From Physcia stellaris (Eukaryota; Ascomycota; Lecanoromycetes; Caliciales; Physciaceae), in contig JABSSW010000022.1 of the NCBI GenBank assembly GCA_018902385.1, forward strand, positions 124,001 to 188,000: DNA of 64,000 bases, given 5' to 3'. The first letter of the stretch is position 1; the number at the start of each line of letters is the position of its first letter. The translations under genes were made by a program, and so were the position numbers. Positions 47,895 through 61,300 of the stretch are shown one piece after another. Below the pieces are notes generated by a model. The model saw nothing but the letters and a program-made list of their open reading frames with translations. It searched no databases and was not told the DNA's origin.

Positions 47895-49602
47895 CCCGAA
47901 TAGACTACGTTTACGATCTGGATACCGATGACAGAATCCGGCGTTTGATGGCTTCAGTCCACCTGCAAGACCAGCAATTGGACTTTCAGCTGGCGTTTTC
48001 GCTTAAGCATGCTTTCCAGGAGGGGTAAAAGGCGTTTTGGATGAATTGGGGTGGCTGTGTCATGTTTCAGGACTGATGGTTTCAACGGACGATCTCTAAA
48101 TGGACCCAGGCACTTGGATGTGAGATGTTTTCATTCTTATGTCATCACTACTTTCTCAAATACGTACACGGTTCTTACTTCTATTCTTCATGGACGGTGG
48201 TGGGGTGCATACACAGCGAATACCACACGGGGTTGGGGGCGGAAAGCCCGGTCGGCATCTGCCACGGAGGCAGCACAAATAATTCGCTAGACTTTGTTAT
48301 CATAGCTTTTTGTACAACTACTGTATTCTTGACTTGATGATGACTGCTATTGTCAGTCGGAGCTTCTGTTCGAGTGCAAGGGCTGTCAGATTGATCCGAT
48401 CGCAAGTGCCTGGGATGACGGGAGTTGCAAGCCAATGACAAAGCTTCCGAAACGAGTGTCCGGCTTTGATTCCTCGTTGGAGGTTCCGGGCGCTTACAGA
48501 GCATCTCTCCTTGAACCACGACATCCATCTGTTCATATCGACGTGGGGACCAGCCAATCACCCGTTCGCTTAGGATTGAGGCTGAACAGCTCGAATCCTT
48601 CCCTCGGAGGCATGCAACATTGCGGATACAGAAGCTGCGAGCGCGCACGTTCCACTCCCACGTTCAGCTTCCGTCCAACTTTCGCAACTGCTGCATCCTC
48701 TAGGCCCATCTGAGATAGCCGAAGGATTCGAATGCCTGCTGATGCCATCAGAATCCCTAATCTGGGACTGGCTTAGACCTCAACCGTTCGCTCTCTAGCA
48801 GCGCGAATAACCGGTCGAGCCGAAGAGCAGCTCCGAGCAGTAGTAACTCCTATTAACAGCCATCGGCATATTACTACTGCGACCCAAGAAGAAGATAGAT
48901 AATTAAGGAAAGACAGACTCGTTGTCGCCAGTACCACTGTTTGTCCGACGCCTTAATTGCCGTTTTAAGGCTGAGCGGCGGGGTAGCAAGGAAGCGCAGG
49001 CGCCTACAACACCTCCCCTCAACGCCTTGTGTCCCTTATGGGGTAGCACTACAGCAGCAGCACGAGCATTATTGTTCATGCATCTCCCCCTCGAACCTGC
49101 CAAATACACTTTCAAAGGATTCGAGAAGTTCGCACCTTCAGTCACGGGAACGGAAATGTAAGCGGTGATCAATATCAAGGCTTCCATGGCCGCACCCTGG
49201 GAAAAGCGTTCAAGCAAACCAGAGACGGACGGCGTTGATCAACGGCCCGACAGTACTTTCCTTATCTCCTTTACTCTCGTCACGACCTCTCCTTTGCTGA
49301 TCAGATGACCGTCACCTTGCGCAATGCCGGTACACCACTACTCTAGGCGTATTGAAAGCCACCAAGCATCGGAGGCGACCAGGGAAAGCTATAGAAACGG
49401 TAAGGATTGGCCCGAGTCCGCCCTTGGGTGTTGAAGCCATCATTACCAGTCGAACGCTTTGCCCTAAAAGGCGACCACTAGACTTTCCTCGGTCTACGCT
49501 GTTATCTCGCAATCTCTTTCCACGGCGAGAACGGGTTGTCCCGTGCAGCGGACGGCGGCCAAGCTACGAGTAGCATCTTCTTGATTTTCCTTAGCAAAAC
49601 GT
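47895..49602. other. Intergenic, no gene seen
   Basis: About 1.7 kb of normal-GC sequence between the zinc-finger gene and the retroelement. Frames are short and without family likeness. The last bases are the left copy of the element's target duplication. Confidence 0.55.
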
Positions 49603-49750
49603 TGATGGAATGCAAAATGCACCTTTCTCAATTAGCTTAGCTTAGCAATAGCATAAGTGGTCATCTGATCATCAGAGATTTTCTTTCACTATCATACAAT
49701 GCATTCTGATTTTAATTATTGATTTTTATTCATCAATGATTAATTTTTCA
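49603..49750 (+). repeat. Left LTR of the Gypsy-type fossil
   Basis: This 148-bp direct repeat of 58167-58314 begins TGATGGAATGC and ends TTTTTCA, fitting TG..CA ends. The four bases before it (ACGT, or five counting AACGT) recur just after the right LTR. LTRs of this size are short for a Gypsy element. Confidence 0.95.
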
Positions 49751-52700
49751 ATGAAAATTGAACAGAAATTGTAGCAAATTGATGCTGCAAACTCAGACAA
49801 AAGTACGTGTTTGAAAATTTTTCATTCATTTTGCATTTTATTCGTGTTGTTTCGATCAAAAAAATTTGATCGAAAAAAATTTTCTCATTTAATCATCGTT
49901 ACGTGCATTTTGTCATAATCAAAAAAATTTGATTGAACAAAATTAAAAATTATCGAAAAATCGAATAATTTATGACGAGTCGAATATTTCATTTTTTATT
50001 TTTCGAAAAAAACTTACAAATTACATCAAAATTTAAAAAAAAAATTATTTTTTTTTTTGTTAAACAAACGATTGTTAACAAAATTAAATCATTTTTCAAA
50101 CGTGATTTTTTTTATTCATTCAATCAAAATCAATTTTACACAATTTTTTTTGAAAATAATTTCGAAAAAGTTTCGTCATCGCTAAAAAAGTTTGTTTTTT
50201 CGAAAAAAATCTCATTTAGCAAATCAAAATTCGAGTTAAATTTTTTTAAATCAATCATTTTCAATTCGTCAAATTCAATTTTATTCACGAAAATTTCAAT
50301 CAAAATTCGATTTTTTAAAAGATTTCGAAACGAAAAAAAAAATTCGAAAAAATACATTGAAAACATAGATTGAACATATGAACGAAATTTCAAAACAATT
50401 GACGTCGATGAAATTACGATTAACAAATTCAAACGAATGTTGTTTCGTCAAAATTTGAAAAATGATATTCATGTTTGATACAAAAATTTGAAATCAAATT
50501 TCAAACAAAATTGATTTAAATTGCTGAAATTCTTTTTAAAATATTATGAGATTTTCGTGAAAAATGCTCAAATTAAAAAGTTTGAATTAAAAATGCAATT
50601 AATTCAATTGAAACAAAAAAATCAAAAATTGATTTTCGATTATATCAAACGAATTTCAAATATTTCGCGAAAATTATTTAACGACGAAATTGACGTCGAA
50701 ATGATTATTTTGCGAAATATGAAAAACGTTTCGAAAAAAAAACAAATAAATTTCGAATGTCAAAAAAAACAAAATTACAATTTTATTGTTGTGAATAAGT
50801 TGATTAAAACAATTTACAATGAAATAAACAAATTCAATTCATTTGATTCGAAATACAAAAAGATTATGCAAATGATATTGTTTCATACAACAAATTTTGA
50901 TCAAATCAATAATGAGTTGTTTAAACAAATTTTAATTAATAGTAATCAAATTTTTTCAGCGATGTTTCAAACATTACGTTCGTTGAATTTCAATTTTGAT
51001 CAATTTACGAATTTTGATCAGCGAAAATTTACGAGTACGCAACAAAACGACAAAAATTTTGCACATATAATTTGTTACATATGCAAACAATCAAATCATT
51101 ACGTTTCACATTGTTCAAATCAATCAAATCAAACGTTTAGAATCACGAAAATTATCAATCACACAATGATATCAATTAATCAAATACAATTTCAACGACA
51201 AACGAAATATTCATTTGCTTTTAATCAATCATTTCTTTCGAATGAATTGACTCGATTGAATGCTATTTTTAGTCAATCATTTCATAGTCAAATTGTCAAT
51301 AAATCACAACATGAATTTAAATCAACAATGTCGAATGTCGTAATTTTAGCATCATCATTGTCGATTTTGAAAAAAACTAAAGTGAAAAATTATCATATCG
51401 ACGACGAAAATAATGATCGAAACTTTTTCTCATCAATGATTTGTATTTTATCAGCACAGAAATCATATTTGATCACAATCATGATTGCGCAAAATGTTAA
51501 AAACAAACAAAAAACTAATCAAACAACGACGATTTCGTTTTTCGAAATCAAAAAATCAAAATTTCGATTGAATTCGTCAATTAAAATTTCGAAAAAGAAC
51601 GTAAAATATGTGTTCAATGCGAAAAATCAAAATGATGATGAAAAAAATAAAGAAAATCAAAAATCAAAAAAAATAAATATTTCGAAAAATGAAATTGACA
51701 ACGATGAATTTACGTTCATTTATCAACAGATTTCGCAATCAATTTTTTGAAAAAATAATCGATCATTTTTTTCACAATTGTTTCAATCGATATCGCAAAA
51801 TTCAATTCAATATGAGTTTCGAAATTCGTCGTCAATCAAATTCAATAAAAAAAAAATTTAATTCATTTGATTTTATACAAATTTTCAAAGATTTTCGATT
51901 TTATTCAAAATTTATTCGAAATTAGTCGATTCAACGTAAACATCATCATGAATTTGTTTTTGATTTTGTCGTTGAAACAATTTTTTGACAAATTCGATGT
52001 GATCAAACTAGAATTGACAGAAAGCATGCAACGATTTATTGCGAAATATCGAATTCGAAAAATTAATGAACAAAATCGAAATCAACAAAAAACGATAACG
52101 TCATTGATTATGACGATCACAAAAATTAAAACAAAATCATCAATCATTATAATTCATGCTCACGAAAATGATGAACAGTCACAATTTTTGATGATTATTT
52201 TTTGAATAAACAATGTGAAATTGTCAAGAACATTGATAAATGAAAAATCGATGATGAAATTGATTAATCGTCAAAAATTTTTAATCATGAAATTTGCATT
52301 TTTTGTACGAACAAACGATTATTTTCGAGTTAATCTAATCACGAATCACGTTAAAACGCTCACAAATTACATCGTACTTTTTGTTAATGTCGAAAAAATA
52401 AAAATTGTGATTAGAACATATATCGTGAACAATCAGATTTATGATTTGTTATTGAGCATTTCATGAATGAAAAAAATAATTTTTAATTCGCATTATGACA
52501 CAAACGAAATAATTATAATTGAAAAAAATGAAAAAAAACGAAAAATGTCAATTCAGATTTTTCAATTCATGTTGATTTATCAACGATAAAAATGAATAAC
52601 GACGACGAAATTAACGATTTGATCGACGCTGTTTGTCAATTGTTTTTAAATGAGCAATTAAATTGAATACGTATTCAACGAATAATCATTCGTTGAAACG

Positions 52701-55700
52701 TGAATGTCGCAAAATTGATCAAAATAATTTTAATATATTTAGTCAACAATCGTTAACGTTCATGACGATTATCATCATTTTTATTTTCGTGATTACGAAA
52801 ACAGAATCTATTTTATTTAAATATTCGTTAAATACAGAAAATGACTTTTCGACGCAAAAAAGATCAATACAACGAAAATTAAATAATGAAAGCATGAATG
52901 TTATTGAAAAATGATTCGAAAAAAGTGAAATTACTATAGAATTAAACGTTGATACAAAAAAAAAATGATTAAAGCGAAACGATTAATTTACATTTGAAAA
53001 AAATGTTTTGCGATAACAATTAAAAACATACGAATTACAAATTTTATTGAGCATTCAATCGATTTTATTTCGAATGCGAAATCAATTCGAAATACGTTAT
53101 TTAAATACATTTTCAAAAAAAGAGAATTCGCAAATCGAATTTTTTCAAAATTAGAAAATGCAAACATTATAATCAAAAAAAGCAATTCATGAGAAATTAA
53201 AATCAAATTTTTTTTCAAAAAAAAAAAATCAAAATTATTGCGAATGATTCATAATTTTATATTTATCAACAAATACATTATCAAATCAGTTTATTTTATG
53301 CATCACATGAAAAAAATTATAATTATTTTTTTGAAATTCAAATTTTCGATTTATTTTTGTTCGAACGCAACAAATGATTATTGAACGATTTCAATCAAGA
53401 AAAATAATAAAAATAAGATTGAATTTATTATTTTCAACAATCAATGAATATATCTAAAAATGAATCAAAATTTTAAAAAAAATTCGTTTATTTATGCGCA
53501 ATTTTCGAATTTGATATTTGATTCATTGTCATTCAACGACGTCGACGTGATCAGAATAATTACAATGATTGATGATCATGACGAGTTAATTTTCGCAATT
53601 TTTATGAATGATCACGAAACGTCAATTACAAATTACGAAATTTTGTTTAATTTTTTGCACATTCAATATTTTTTCAGATGTGTATTTGATTCAATATATT
53701 TATTTGATTTTAAAACGTATTTGTTTTCGAACAAATTAAATTTTTTAAAATTTGAAAAAAATGCAAAAAATTTGAAATCAATTTTCAAACATCGCAACAA
53801 GATTTTGAATTGATTTGTTTTTAAAAATCGAAAAAAATTAAATGCGTTTTTATGATTGACGTTTTTTTTACGAATTTTTATATTCGAAAAAGCGAAATTA
53901 ATGCTAGAAATGAAAAAAATTTATTTCATGTTGATGTCAAACGAATTCAAATTCAAAAAAAATCATGATGCAAAAATGAAATCATGCGACGAAAATTTGA
54001 TCAAATTACATAAAACGTTTCGAATAAAACGATCAATCATTCAACGCAAATATGTAAAAAAAAATATTTTCGATTGAAAAGCAAATCAACAAAAAGCATT
54101 CGAATCGATTAAAAAAATTATAATTAATAATGTCATGACAAAAACAGATTCAGCATTTCAATTTCATTTGATCACGAATGTTAACGAAACGAAATTGAAA
54201 ATTTGTTTATTTCAATTGCAAAATATTGAAACAGAAATTGAAACTATTTCGAAATTGTTAATTCATGAAAAAATGTTCATGTTTTTGTTTTATCGTTTGA
54301 ACGACGCAGAAACACGATATTCGAATTTTGAACGTGAATGTTATGTCATAATGAAAAATTTAATCGAAATTAAATGATTAATCATGAACAACAAATTTTC
54401 AATAATGATATATATTGATCATGAAACGTTAAAATCAATGTTCGTCACAAAACAAACAAAAAAAAAAAAATTTCATGATTAAACATGTTGAAAAAATTCG
54501 ATTTCAAATTACATCATCGATTCAATAAAAATCAACACATAAATATTGTCGATGAATTTAATCGAATGTTCATTAAATTGCAAAATGTAATTATTTATTC
54601 GAAAAAAAAACGTTTGATTATGTCAATGCTAAATGTGAATTTACAAAATTTTAGTATTTATTTGTCGAATGAACAATTTGATCATTCATTTGAAATTGAT
54701 AATGAGCGAAAATCAGAAATTGAACGAAAAACAAAATCGTTACTTATTTTGTTCTTTGAAAAGTTGAATAAGTATTATAAATTCTCAATGTATAATCAGT
54801 TGATGAAATATTTCGAAAAAAAATCAAATGATTTGAAAAAGCAAAAATTGATCGTTAAAAAAATAAAGACTTTCGGAAATAAAATCAATGTTTACATTTT
54901 ATTTTCACACGTTATCACAATTCATTTACTTTATCGAAAAACAAACGAAAAAAATAGCATTTACATAATCGAAAAAGAAATATCACGATTTTTCAAAGTA
55001 ATTTACGAAAATCACGATCATTTCTCGTCAGTTTTAACATTTGATTTTTTGATAAAACGAATTTATTGATTTACAAAAGTAAAAAATATCGAGACGTGAT
55101 ATAGAAATTGTCATTTCTGTCAATGTCGATTAAAGAAATCAATTCAACGAATTTCGTTTAACATTCAGCATTTTCAATCAATGATCATGATCGATTTAAA
55201 TTGATTAAAATTTATATCGTTTTTTTGTTCAATCACAAATGCTCAATATGTTTGTCTAGAACGAAATTATTGAAACAAATTCAGTTGAGCAAAGATTTAT
55301 CGCACACATATTGTTTTGAAAACGTTAAATTTTTTACGAAAACATATTTGTTCAATTTTCGAATAATCAGAAGAAACGTACATTGACAATGATTTTCATT
55401 TCGTTAACAACGATGTTAGCGCAATGTTTATTGAGTATGACATTAATCATTTTACAAATTCAATATCGCATTTTTCATCGATTGATTTTTTGAAACGAGC
55501 AATTCAGAAAATGTTGAATTTTATTGCAAAAGATTGTATAAATCGAGAAACAACAAACTCGTGATTTTTGTTTATTCGAAATCATATTTTTACAATGAAT
55601 ATCAAATCAATCAAAACATTAAATTACTTTTCGATTATATTGATGTTAAAATTCGAGTTCAAGCAATATCATTTCGATATAAATTCAATAATTTTTTCAG

Positions 55701-56200
55701 ATTCAACAGATGTTGAACAGTCTTTGTCAATTCATCAATATCAAATATATATCGCACTAAAAAAAAAGAACAAATTGTTAATTAGCGAAACAATCAATTA
55801 TATTCATGATTATCAAAAGAAAAAACAACGACAGCAAAGAATATTCAATTTTGACGATTTGATTTTAATCAGAAATCATCAAGTCGATAAAAAACATAAA
55901 AGAAAATTGAAATCGAAATGACTAGAATTTCGTATAATGTTAAATTGAATTCATCATGAACAAAACGTTCACATCAAATCAATTCACGAAAAAAAGTCAA
56001 AGAAATATCATATCGATGATATTATAATTTATCATCAACGATCAATTTTGACAAATTTATTGATTTCGATCAACGAAATTTACGACAATATACGAATTAT
56101 TATCAGATTTGAACAACGAACATTATGTTTAATCATCAATTAAAAGAAAATTACACATCGTTCGCAATGACGTTAAATTAACAAAAAAATAAAAATTTCA

Positions 56201-56275
56201 AACGAATACGAATCGATTTCGTTTTTCGTTGTCGTCGTTTTTTTCAACGAATACGAATCGATTTCGTTTTTCGTT
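56201..56275. repeat. Exact 30-bp direct repeat inside the fossil's post-integrase spacer
   Basis: The 30 bases at 56201-56230 recur exactly at 56246-56275, each beginning AACGAATACG and ending TTTTTCGTT, 15 bases apart. From ~56330 to 56420 shorter related phrases follow (TTTTCATTTTACAATTCATT, TTTTCATTTTGCAATTCATC). The spacer lies between the integrase-like region and the unrecognised 3' segment. It may have been regulatory, which is speculation. Confidence 0.85.
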
Positions 56276-58166
56276 ACAACATTTTTTTATCGAAATTAAC
56301 GCGCTTAATTAATCGCGATGAAATTATTCAATTTTCATTTTACAATTCATTTCACATTTTCATTTTGCAATTCATCAAACATTCACATTTCGTTTTGTTT
56401 TACAATTTCATTTTGCAATTGTTTCAAACGATATACATTAACGATTTTACGAAACATTTTTTTAACATCGATCAAATAGAATGATCGACAATAAAATCAA
56501 TGTATTGATCGAAATTGACAACAAAGAAAATCGAGAAAAGATTAAACGTATCGAAACACGAAAGCGATTCACAAAACAAGATTTATTTATTTTTTCGAAA
56601 TTACAAATTCAGATTAGAAATCGCAAAAGAATTAATCAAATCATAAAGAACAAGAAAATTGAAAATGACGAATTATTCGACGATGATGACATTTTCGAAA
56701 AAGAAATTACATTTAAATCAATTTTTACAGAAAATCATAAACGAATCAACGAGTCGAAATTAATTGAATCAAACAAAAAAAAAATTAAATTGATTAACAA
56801 ACAAAAATTAATGACATCACACGAAAACGATGTGATCAAAATGATCAAAATTGAATTTCAATCAAATTCAAAAATCGATTTATCGACAATTTTTCGTTGT
56901 GAATTCAACACGATGTATTTAGCAATTAATTCAAATCAAAAAAAAAAATCATTCATTTTTGAAATTTAATTTATCAACATTTGAAAAATGTGTTTATCAA
57001 AATATTCGACGAAATGTTCGAAATCAAATTTGAATCGTATGTTAATTTATTTATCGAATTTGCAAATGTCGCATTTTCAAAATTTTTAAATTTCAATCAA
57101 AATTTAAAATTAAATCAATTGTTCGTCGTTGAAAACAAAATTCATTTCATTAATTACAATATTTATTTGATCAACATCAAGCAAAATTTAAATGCAATGA
57201 TCAAAAATCAAATCAAAACGAAAAAAAAACACATTGTTGTCGAAAAAATACGATTGACGAAAATAATTCACGATTTTTTAATCGATTTCGTTTTTTTGAA
57301 AAATGATTTTCAATTAACGAACATCAATTTGATTCACAATGTTAACATGTTGACGAAAATATGCGAATTCATTAAAAAAAATTTTTTAATTTATGAAAAT
57401 TATGTTTCGCAATTTAGTCAACAAATCATCGATGACAAAACGATGATTTTCGATGTTTGTTATATCATTGACAAATTGTTAAATTTTTTTTTTTCAGAAA
57501 TCATGATCACGAACAGTGAAAAAATCAAAAAAATTATAAAAATCGATGACGAAATCACGAATGAAAATCAGAAAAAACACGATCATTTCAACGAAATTGA
57601 ATCAGAAATCATTCATATAAAATGCGATCGATATCACATAAAATTGAAAAATCAATTTAAATCGTCAAAAAAAATATCATTCAATTTTTTGATTTTAATA
57701 AACGCGCATTCATGTCGATGTTCAAAGTGCGATTTTGAATTCGAAATTAAAATTATAATCATGATTACGTTTGCGACGAAAATCAAAATGAAAAATGAAT
57801 GATCGAAAAAATATTGAACGAAATATTTGAAAATCAAACAAAGTACATGAAAAACAGAAATGAAACAACAATTCAAAAAACAACGTTTCAAGAAATTGAA
57901 AGAAAAACAAATTGAGAAAAAATTGAATTCATATTAAATCAATCACAAATTGATCGACAAATCAATGAAATTAAACAAAAAATGAAAATTAATTTAATCA
58001 AAAATTACAATTTTTTTAAAAAAAATTTCAACAAATTGCTGAACGAAGCGATGATAAAACGATGAAAAATTATGAATTATGAATGAATATTGAAATTACA
58101 CACATTTCGATGATTATTTCGAGATTATTTACGAAATCGTAGATTTTTTTTTGTTATTATGTGAGC

Positions 58167-58314
58167 TGATGGAGTGCAAAATGCATTTTTCTCAATTAGT
58201 TTAGTTTAGCAGTAGCATAAATGATCATTTGATCATCAGAGACTTTTTTTCACTATCATACAATGCATTTTGATTCTAGTCATTGATTTTTATCCATCAG
58301 TGACTAGTTCTTCA
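58167..58314 (+). repeat. Right LTR of the Gypsy-type fossil
   Basis: The same 148-bp length as the left copy with no gaps. It differs at 20 sites, all transitions. It is followed at once by ACGT, matching the bases before the left LTR, so both ends of the insertion are preserved. Confidence 0.95.
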
Positions 58315-61300
58315 ACGTTGGATATTTAGTATGGATTTGCCCATCAGCCCAAACCTACATGTACGAGAGTAAGAAGGTCCTTAAGTGCCCTTCGTTCAAC
58401 CAACGACAGTCTTCGGGCACTTTATCGTCTTATCGCTACTCGACTCTGGCTTTGCAATGACCCGAAAGGCACACGTCGTTGAATTGCGTGCCGACGATGC
58501 ACCACGCGGTTTGCTAGCTGCTACTAGAGGAGCTATTACACCAATTGAAGTAGAGCCGGGCCCAAGGAGGTAGAATTAACCTTCTATGGCAACAATCCAT
58601 CGCCGGCTGCAGTCCACTTGATGCGAAATGAAGCACCCCAAGTCAGGAATCATTGTGCGCTTCGTCGCTCAAACCATGTCCTCGGTGCAGCACGAGGCTA
58701 CGTGGCAGCTAGAAGCAGATATGATATATGCTCAGGGTTGGTACCGCAAAGCCCATCAGTCGTTTAGTGTGGGCGATGGCAGTGGACTTCAGCGAGACGA
58801 ATCGCAGCGTCGCCACAGCCTTCTTTACCTGATCAACAAATGCTAAAACTGCCTACGGACGGATATGCACACCATCGTGGAGGGAAGATAGACGTCGATT
58901 TGTTGGGGGCCAATCTTGTCCGTTTCTCCGTGTTAGGATTTGCGAGTAACCCTCCAGTCATTGGACACGAAGCACAAGTCAGCATTTTCTCCTACCCCCA
59001 AAGGCTCACACCGTCCATGAGTGGTAGCAGAACGGACGACTATCGCACTTGCTTCTGCTATTTAACCATCAGGTCGCCCCACGTTTCTTTACCGGGCCTG
59101 CAGAGATGTAGATTGCACTTTGAAAAGAGCTTCCGAGCTCGGACGAATCGGGAGCCGGCAACGGAAGCCCGAAGCTGTTGGTGGCGCTCCTGCACTTTGG
59201 CCACTAGCGGTAATATCGGTATCAGGGGGCTTCGATGACGATTTGGGGACTGTTTCAGATTCTGGTGCAATCATGAGGTGCACCTCGTCCCAGCAGCATC
59301 TCCTGCACACAGAGGCAATCACATGAGGACCAAAACAAGCTACTGATAATCCTAGCCGGACGTTACCTCGGTACGGTCGTAAAGCTGTTGCTCGGACCTT
59401 GAGCAAGGGCAGCAACTCCCAGTGGGATCACGTCGCAGCTGGCTTCTTCTGGCAGCATTTGGCGAATTCAGAAAGACACCATGCATGGTCCACGTGTGTC
59501 ACTGCACCCCCATACGATAAGCGGTCCGGGATGCTAGGTACCTACGCAACGTTAACGGACATGCAGCAATGGGTATCCTATCAAATGCCCCACATCTGTG
59601 GGCTGCGCCTGTCGTCCCCGAATTAGAAACATGGAGCCGTATCAAGCAGAACTGTTCAAAGCAACTGTTGCGAGCACCACCTTGTGATCACAAGTTCACA
59701 ACTCTTGGTAACTGATTGACTCGCTTTGCACCAGATTGGTGGACTATCCACGCAGCAATGTTGCGTGACCATGGGTGACAAGGTACTAATCATCCCGAAC
59801 CTTCTTCTGCAGATCCCATCGCCTCCTCCGAAGAGTCTTAAGAGACGGACTAAGCGCTAAGAAACACCAACTGTATCATAGAGTATCTACTCGCCTTCAC
59901 CGCCAGTCCTTGGGGCATGCGTCCTGGAAAAATAGCTTGAGGCTTGATCAGTAGATGACTTTAGTCAAGTGGAAGCTTGAAAGATAGCGATCTTCGCGGC
60001 CAAGTTCACGAGACAAGACGCCTACAGATTATTTATGGACATTCCCCATTGACGTGGTGCATCATCCGCACGCCTTCATAGTAGGCGCTGGTTGAATGGC
60101 ATAAGTAGGTACTGTTAGCTGCATCCCTAACACTCCACTGGGAGTGTTCTTGATGGAGTAAATTGAGAGCTAAATCTCGTTCATACCTTTAGTGCCGTTA
60201 TTCTTACAGCAACCTTTACTACATTCGCACGTTCCTGCAGCGCCTGTGTCTGTCTTGCTCTGGCCTCGATGGTCGTGCTTTTGCATCACAGCTTTGTCCG
60301 ATTGCCCTTGCAGAGGTGTTGTACGACCAGAAGGCTGTACTCGTCGAGTCGTCGAAGCCCAATCGAGCCTTCTCATCCTTCGATGGTTCCCTGCATCAGT
60401 GCTTGGCCACGTTCACATCGTACATGGGCTTCCTCCTGAACGATAAATGCGCAGCTACCAACCCAGAAGAGGGGACATGTGCCGCTCATTCACAAAGGCA
60501 ACCCACGGGCAATTGGAACTGCATTGCGAACCAAGAACTTGTTTCACGCTTAACCATGTCTTCTGCATCCACGGATCTAAGCGTCAAGCAAGTCATTCGC
60601 TTCTTCCCGAAACCTTCTCCGAGTCCGACGCTCCCGTCCTCTTGATCATCATATGTCAGGTCTAGCATGGGTTGTTTCAGGAGAATATAATGCTGATTTG
60701 TGCTTCTTACACAAGCTCTACCGTGCTTTTGCATAGCACTAGTAGCATTATCAAGAGGCAAATCCTGAGATCTACATTTCTACGAATCTGGTAAGATGTG
60801 TTTCCCAGAAGCAATTGTCTGGACCGCCTATCACTCCCTCGATTCTCAAGCATGCTCGAGAGATGAAGCACACTTATTCCTAGCGCAATCCATGAGGGCC
60901 ATAGCCACCGCTTATTCCATCGATTCGTCACCCTCCATGGACTGTTCAGGATTCACTGCGACAACACGGATTCGTACGACTGATCCACAGCAAGAATAGG
61001 AAAAGACAGAGGGGGTTCACCTCGCCAGTTTGGATGGCGCGGGCTGTTAGCACAACATCACCATGAAGCTTACGAATAACCTTGCCCCGAGTCACACGAG
61101 ACTTTTCGGCTCACAAAGCTCGCTTCGATGGCAGGATTCCGAAAAATTCGCTTGTGGATGTGCTGATTCCTTCGGAGAGCCTCAAGTCTCGATTTCGTGG
61201 CGTTCCTACAAGAAATCAGGCGCAATTCAAGGGGTGGCACCAGGATTACTGTTAACGAATATGTTTTACGTGGCATAGGGACGTACGCTATTTCAAGGAT

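Follow-up and report, generated by a model that had tools for sequence, protein, structure and literature searches.

In a 64,000-nucleotide stretch of the Physcia stellaris genome (contig JABSSW010000022.1, positions 124,001 to 188,000 of the forward strand; hereafter the window), positions 49603 to 58314 hold a long terminal repeat (LTR) retrotransposon in which C-to-T changes have saturated the dinucleotides CpC and CpT (together CpY, Y being a pyrimidine and R a purine). The feature is real, strong and unusual, and most likely reflects a new form of genome defence resembling repeat-induced point mutation (RIP), with CpY specificity. The explanation that we favour, and consider probable, is a homology-limited hypermutation of repeats that targets C before a pyrimidine (CpC somewhat more than CpT) and not before A, and that is probably of the RID type. 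In a recent retroelement copy elsewhere in the genome, 96-99.5% of CpY sites were converted with few other changes. Several repeat classes and one ribosomal DNA (rDNA) pseudogene are affected, and in the copies examined the change is confined to repeats and tapers at their ends.

Cytosine conversion in the window element and other repeats

The window element comprises the following features, its affiliation being the one we take the RT_RNaseH_2 domain to indicate:

49603..58314, + strand: Ty3/gypsy-type LTR retrotransposon, CpC and CpT of both strands saturated with C-to-T changes (dinucleotide odds, GC content, RT_RNaseH_2 match)
49599..49602, no strand: target-site duplication ACGT, left copy, 4 bp
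49603..49750, + strand: 5' LTR, 148 bp, TG...CA, most CpY sites kept at the outer (left) end
50515..51750, + strand: stop-free frame of 411 aa, possibly gag-like (weak zinc-knuckle match only, E 0.28)
54078..54374, + strand: fragment of a reverse transcriptase/RNase H domain (RT_RNaseH_2, Pfam match E 4.5e-8)
58167..58314, + strand: 3' LTR, 148 bp, TG...CA, outer (right) end keeping more CpY than its counterpart stretch in the 5' LTR
58315..58318, no strand: target-site duplication ACGT, right copy, 4 bp

The GC content of the element is 0.237, compared with flanks near 50%. The original prediction, made from the letters alone, described an interior nearly devoid of CC and GG and poor in CT and AG, with CA, TG and CG still common, and the computed both-strand odds bear this out: 0.02 for CC/GG, 0.29 for CT/AG, 1.41 for CA/TG, 2.93 for CG and 0.42 for TA. 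On the + strand of the 8.7-kb element there are two CC and four GG dinucleotides. The flanks have odds of 0.83-1.15, except for TA (0.73-0.75), and every 500-bp bin in the window that holds under 60 CpY sites lies inside the element or across its left end. The standard RIP indices of the element are not positive: TpA/ApT is 0.43, (CpA+TpG)/(ApC+GpT) is 1.75 and the composite index is -1.33. RIPper-type cut-offs were passed by none of the 126 1-kb windows of the 64-kb stretch; these indices do not flag CpY mutation in the window.

The predicted LTR ends (49603-49750 and 58167-58314, each of 148 bp, flanked by the 4-bp ACGT duplication) proved correct, as did the ungapped alignment, in which 20 of 148 sites differ, every one C/T or G/A. 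The contexts were also as described: 16 CpT, 3 CpC, 1 CpA and no CpG. The estimate of about ten intact CpA sites was too low, since the two LTRs share 25 unchanged CpA sites, alongside 8 CpT, 1 CpC and no CpG (CpY versus CpR differences, Fisher p = 6e-7). The absence of CpG differences, correct as a count, is uninformative: with zero unchanged CpG sites, the LTRs alone are silent on this context. The scarcity of CpC among the LTR differences reflects how few CpC sites remain; CpC is the stronger target of the two, which refines the earlier emphasis on CpT.

The assembly (44 Mb, 147 contigs) was searched and 30 loci with RVT_1 matches were fetched. Of these, 23 have CC odds of at most 0.21 and CG odds of at least 2.38; five (L022-L025 and L050) have 49-53% GC, odds near 1 and a stop-free RVT_1 match; in dinucleotide odds L027 is intermediate and L036 near normal. 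A before/after pair of retroelements, unmutated (L022 with L067) and mutated (L039 with L068), is nearly clean and shows, with little noise, both which sites are targeted and how strongly. Between L022 and L039, 918 of 920 substitutions over 3464 aligned bases (13 gap columns) are C-to-T or G-to-A, and the GC content falls from 0.509 to 0.243. Over the next 3 kb (L067 and L068) the figure is 781 of 794. With both parts pooled, conversion reached 836 of 840 CpC and 811 of 845 CpT sites, against 46 of 829 CpA and 2 of 800 CpG. In the first 3.46 kb there is a single transition among 1702 A/T sites, and transversions amount to about 0.0003 per site; conversion was therefore fast relative to ordinary mutation. 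The minor CpA conversion of the pair (5.5%) is itself uneven, affecting 21 of 185 CpApY and 5 of 256 CpApR sites in the same 3.46 kb (p 4.7e-5), a hint that, where A stands at +1, the +2 base has an influence too.

The rule extends to 11 of the 30 RVT_1 loci, L039 among them, which align at 68-75% over long stretches to L022 (unmutated, 51% GC); the remaining loci, at about 55-61% or without alignment, were left out of this comparison. Together the eleven copies have lost 4321 of 4447 CpC (97%), 4041 of 4690 CpT (86%), 323 of 4464 CpA (7%) and 143 of 4118 CpG (3.5%). The 5' base has a small effect (CpC 0.96-0.98 and CpT 0.82-0.90 across all 5' bases), and TpC before a purine is spared (TCA 0.07, TCG 0.03). 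Both strands are mutated in each of the 11 pairs, with CpT conversion of 0.53-0.91 per strand. Ten of the copies diverged from L022 earlier than L039 did; in these, 1.6-2.0% of A/T sites carry transitions, and the hazard at CpC exceeds that background 139- to 355-fold.

Other families follow the same order of contexts. The converted fractions at CpC, CpT, CpA and CpG are 0.94, 0.78, 0.05 and 0.05 in a copia-type pair (L060 versus L065), 0.79, 0.61, 0.07 and 0.06 in a DDE_1 transposon (L052 versus L058), 0.92, 0.74, 0.075 and 0.04 for L023 versus L014+L015, and 0.83, 0.62, 0.20 and 0.11 for L036 versus L049, L036 having one TGA and so not being a clean reference. Relatives of the window element occur at 6 other places in the genome; their unpolarised comparison (8 loci at these 6 places, alignments of at least 1 kb and above 85% identity) gives variation of 0.877 at CpC, 0.837 at CpT, 0.112 at CpA and 0.088 at CpG. 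A copy of the window element at L014-L016 (G000:C1:1283000-1312999) appears to be split by about 14 kb that include another mutated retroelement, related to L023/L024, which would be a nested insertion.

An rDNA pseudogene (L066) was compared with a reference outside this genome, the Rfam consensus, over gap-free alignment blocks. At strongly conserved positions 17 of 18 CpC and 11 of 23 CpU sites are mutated, and none of 19 CpA or 20 CpG; over all positions of the same blocks the counts are 37/48, 34/53, 4/53 and 8/58, respectively. The locus (G000:C41, about 44.4-47.6 kb) is heavily mutated, combines large-subunit, 5.8S and small-subunit sequences and holds the sole 5.8S match found in the assembly; its small-subunit match contains about 365 additional bases, possibly an rDNA intron.

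The before/after pair, the eleven copies and the rDNA pseudogene thus support the predicted C-to-T mutator with a 3' pyrimidine preference. Transitions dominated by CpA, which would have spoken against it, were seen in none of the families examined, CpC and CpT lying far above CpA and CpG. These families (three RVT_1, the copia-type, the DDE_1 DNA transposon, the one rDNA pseudogene and the window's own) came from family searches, not from a whole-genome repeat alignment. An inherited composition is excluded by unmutated relatives of 50-53% GC; between one of these and a mutated copy, nearly the sole difference is C-to-T at CpY.

Repeat edges, methyltransferase genes and competing explanations

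In four full copies, CpY density falls from flank level to near zero within the first 150-200 bp inside each end, and at seven of the eight boundaries there is no drop just outside the element. The two LTRs offer an internal control, being the same sequence in two positions (sites were pooled over the four copies and are not fully independent). LTR positions 0-50 keep 47 of 56 CpY sites when outer and 20 of 56 when inner (p 2.9e-7), positions 100-154 keep 33 of 48 and 18 of 48 (p 0.004), and the middle third keeps 38 of 68 in the 5' LTR and 22 of 68 in the 3' LTR. Since the same sequence retains more CpY when it is outermost, retention depends on the distance from the repeat edge. At the few places tested, duplicated sequence was hit and single-copy DNA spared.

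The genome encodes candidate enzymes of both kinds that the original prediction proposed to look for, two RID/Masc1-like genes and one DIM-2-like gene; a PF00145 search gave four matches in these three genes. The DIM-2-like gene (C3:340323) has a long open frame with the Pfam domains DNA_methylase and DUF7893, and its best PDB match (E 2e-181) is 9bap_A, a DNA (cytosine-5-)-methyltransferase which we take to be fungal DIM-2. The other two, C6:791557 and C5:498855-499792 (L018 and L020/L021), are clearly related to each other and resemble RID/Masc1 in motif IV (SPPCQ), motif VI (EQT/EET, the usual form being ENV) and motif X (QIGNAVPP), a label given by these motifs. Their first exons carry the Pfam DNA_methylase domain only, and by eye their frames are interrupted only at intron-like stretches.

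The 3'-base rule, the small 5' influence, the mutation of both strands, the taper at the edges and the saturation with few other mutations together fit RIP by an enzyme of the C5-methyltransferase type. C:G to T:A transitions occur on both strands of the repeats, and RID/Masc1-family genes are present by motif. In Neurospora crassa the RID pathway acts on repeats directly, and the DIM-2 pathway on single-copy DNA that repeats flank (PMC12543289); given the mostly clean boundaries, this division favours RID. Copies would be recognised through DNA homology, probably premeiotically as in Neurospora, and C would be converted via a RID/Masc1-type C5-methyltransferase route, involving one or both of the RID-like genes, the 3'-base specificity of which would have moved from A to Y. 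We put forward tentatively, at somewhat less than even chances, the stronger proposal that one RID/Masc1-like paralogue (or an unnamed enzyme) is a near-absolute CpY mutator, forming a separate branch of repeat defence with its own 3'-base code and able to convert about 98% of a repeat's CpY within one episode or a few.

Several observations weigh against such a RIP-like process. A preference for CpA is usual in ascomycete RIP, albeit outside its original definition, and here CpA is largely spared (46/829, versus 836/840 for CpC). CpT conversion is incomplete in places (11/23 in the rDNA, 0.61 in L058, 0.62 in L049), and that of CpA rises to 0.20 in L036/L049. When the window element is compared with L012, L015 and L017, CpA differences number from about half to nearly all of the CpT count, because few CpT remain. 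At the edges, the one boundary of eight that departs from the rule is the 3' flank of L009 (9257-9756), which is AT-rich and CpY-poor though outside the element; it may be an old adjoining repeat or leakage. A modest dip in CpY also lies 300-500 bp outside the 3' end of L010. Same-strand processivity was not detected (mean correlation 0.047 on the same versus 0.034 on the opposite strand, p 0.24). The only link between either RID-like gene and the mutations is its presence. Finally, among the differences within the unmutated pairs L023/L024 (94.9% identical) and L063/L064 (96.8%), CpY is not clearly in excess; the process has therefore not reached every repeat, and these pairs speak against a fully active system today. 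Perhaps they are untreated since they are recent, or the lineage is now mostly asexual.

Among the alternatives, the one closest to RIP invokes a heterochromatin-guided DIM-2-like methyltransferase with a CpY preference that methylates or deaminates repeats. Besides the long open frame of the DIM-2-like gene, it draws on a review by which Neurospora DIM-2 methylation prefers CpT (PMC13297926) and on Zymoseptoria, where DIM-2 promotes C-to-T in mitosis (PMC8016269); from these data, the context read by DIM-2 varies among species. Yet CpT is avoided by the Zymoseptoria enzyme, whose mutations occur at CpA (PMC8016269), and in Neurospora the DIM-2 RIP pathway acts on single-copy DNA between repeats (PMC12543289), whereas seven of eight boundaries here show no drop outside. 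We therefore regard this alternative as unlikely. Slow deamination of 5-methylcytosine at CpY over long times, without active mutagenesis, in the manner of MIP (methylation induced premeiotically), would agree with the methyltransferase genes present and with the occurrence of non-CpG methylation in fungi (PMC8016269). The loss of about 98-99% of CpY between L022 and L039, at one A/T-site transition in 1702, makes it very improbable, as does the CpC hazard of the other ten copies (139-355 times background transitions). Spontaneous deamination of 5-methylcytosine is within about one order of magnitude of ordinary mutation, and these values are not of that size.

The original prediction had left the choice between a variant RIP and a deaminase-like process. 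The former fits better, and a deaminase reading the 5' base fits less well, because the preceding base has little effect and both strands are mutated. An AID/APOBEC-like or other cytosine deaminase, acting for instance on reverse-transcription intermediates, would account for C-to-T changes in retroelements. Deaminases of this kind read the 5' base, a preference not seen here; nor is there a single-strand bias in any of the 11 pairs, and a DNA transposon and an rDNA pseudogene are mutated too. We give this explanation even less weight than slow deamination. Least credible, to the point of being negligible, are native composition, ultraviolet damage at dipyrimidines, and an assembly or base-calling artefact. 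AT-rich elements do occur naturally, and CpC and CpT are dipyrimidines, but the mutated copies differ from their unmutated 50-53% GC relatives mainly at CpY, and the rDNA pseudogene carries the pattern against an external consensus. Ultraviolet light would also convert C at TpC with a 3' purine, a context that is spared (TCA 0.07, TCG 0.03). The copies moreover vary from one to another, and an artefact would not be expected to give the LTR edge effect.

Relation to known systems

Classical RIP, as in Neurospora crassa and Leptosphaeria maculans, shares with the pattern described here the heavy C-to-T change, the mutation of both repeat strands and the presence of RID/Masc1-type genes; in Neurospora it is RID-dependent. 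The differences lie in the target, which is CpY and not CpA, in the nonsense codons, mostly TGA and not TAA/TAG, and in the TpA/ApT and CpA-based indices, which point in the opposite direction. Affected rDNA pseudogenes are again common to both (PMC5555474).

CpT changes have been described before. Transposable elements of Botrytis, Sclerotinia and Magnaporthe show CpT beside CpA signatures, and a RID motif ('motif 29') has been suggested for CpT (Amselem 2015, PMC4352252); much CpT change occurs in N. crassa Tad1 and some S. nodorum repeats (RIPCAL, PMC2621366), and CpT-to-TpT is dominant in alignments of RIP-capable controls (Van Wyk 2021). Enrichment of CpT-to-TpT is thus common to this genome and to Botrytis, Sclerotinia, Magnaporthe, Colletotrichum truncatum, Anisogramma (PMC10998396) and N. 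crassa Tad1. The species with a CpT signature, however, also target CpA, whereas in this genome the process spares CpA and CpG and hits CpC hardest. The 'CpT' families of C. truncatum have TpA/ApT of about 1.6 and a CpA index of about 0.1 (PMC6180176), so that CpA looks exhausted there, the reverse of this genome. We rejected a reading of the LTR pattern as exhausted CpA, because CpA is over-represented in the element (odds 1.41), and in the before/after pair 94% of it stayed unconverted.

C-to-T in transposable elements under a 3'-base rule distinct from plain CpA is also found in Microbotryum, the rusts (weakly) and Tuber (with CpA second), where it is directed to CpG (PMC4352252); unlike in those fungi, CpG is the most protected context here (2/800). 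With the DIM-2 systems of Neurospora and Zymoseptoria the likeness consists of a DIM-2-like gene and a non-CpG context. Zymoseptoria DIM-2 methylates CG and CA and hardly CT (PMC8016269), which differs from CpY, and the Neurospora DIM-2 pathway acts between repeats (PMC12543289), whereas most boundaries here are clean. A 2025 survey covering 1,239 fungi concluded that a preference for CpA is common to RIP-like defences (PMC12543289); this genome looks like a clear counter-example. We found no report of a CpC-led, CpA-sparing (CpC/CpT-only) RIP in the excerpts of the literature searched, and an earlier report is possible.

The usual indices have the opposite sign in the window, so RIP-like defence may extend further than has been estimated. 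Should a CpY-specific paralogue exist, CpA-based indices could have classed the lineages that have it as RIP-negative. The presence of two RID-like paralogues together with one DIM-2-like gene in a single genome makes the determinant of the 3'-base specificity of RIP directly testable.

Effects on coding frames

With both strands mutated, the CpY rule leads most directly to a stop through TGG to TGA; a CpA rule gives TAA and TAG, as stated for RIP in PMC3828140. The best 150 of 527 candidate RVT_1 matches contain 250 TGA, 33 TAA and 3 TAG in frame, with 10 matches stop-free; scoring was limited to the best candidates, which biases this tally towards readable matches. In 10 DDE_1 matches, 44 TGA, 3 TAA and no TAG were counted by eye, and among RVT_2 matches TGA is by eye the commonest stop, with TAA in many rows (not totalled). 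The 321-codon open frame of L022 illustrates the effect: all 77 aligned TGG codons became stops (73 TGA, 4 TAA), all 33 CAA codons were unchanged, 82 of 99 CAG codons changed silently to CAA, and 35 of 44 CGA codons were unchanged, the other nine becoming CAA.

At the protein level, such a process would turn Trp TGG into TGA and all but eliminate Pro (CCN) and Gly (GGN) codons, while Gln and most Arg CGA codons would survive. CpY mutation thereby deprives genes of Trp, Pro and Gly codons and creates TGA stops, and does not turn Gln codons into TAA/TAG. Long frames can survive in the window element because stops arise mainly from TGG. A reading of TGA as Trp in these elements was set aside, because CC and GG, required for Pro and Gly codons, are nearly gone.

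Three copia-type elements escape the mutator (L063, L064 and G000:C7:889944). They have stop-free RVT_2 matches and open frames of 1257-1624 aa, and the two that were read have 48% GC.

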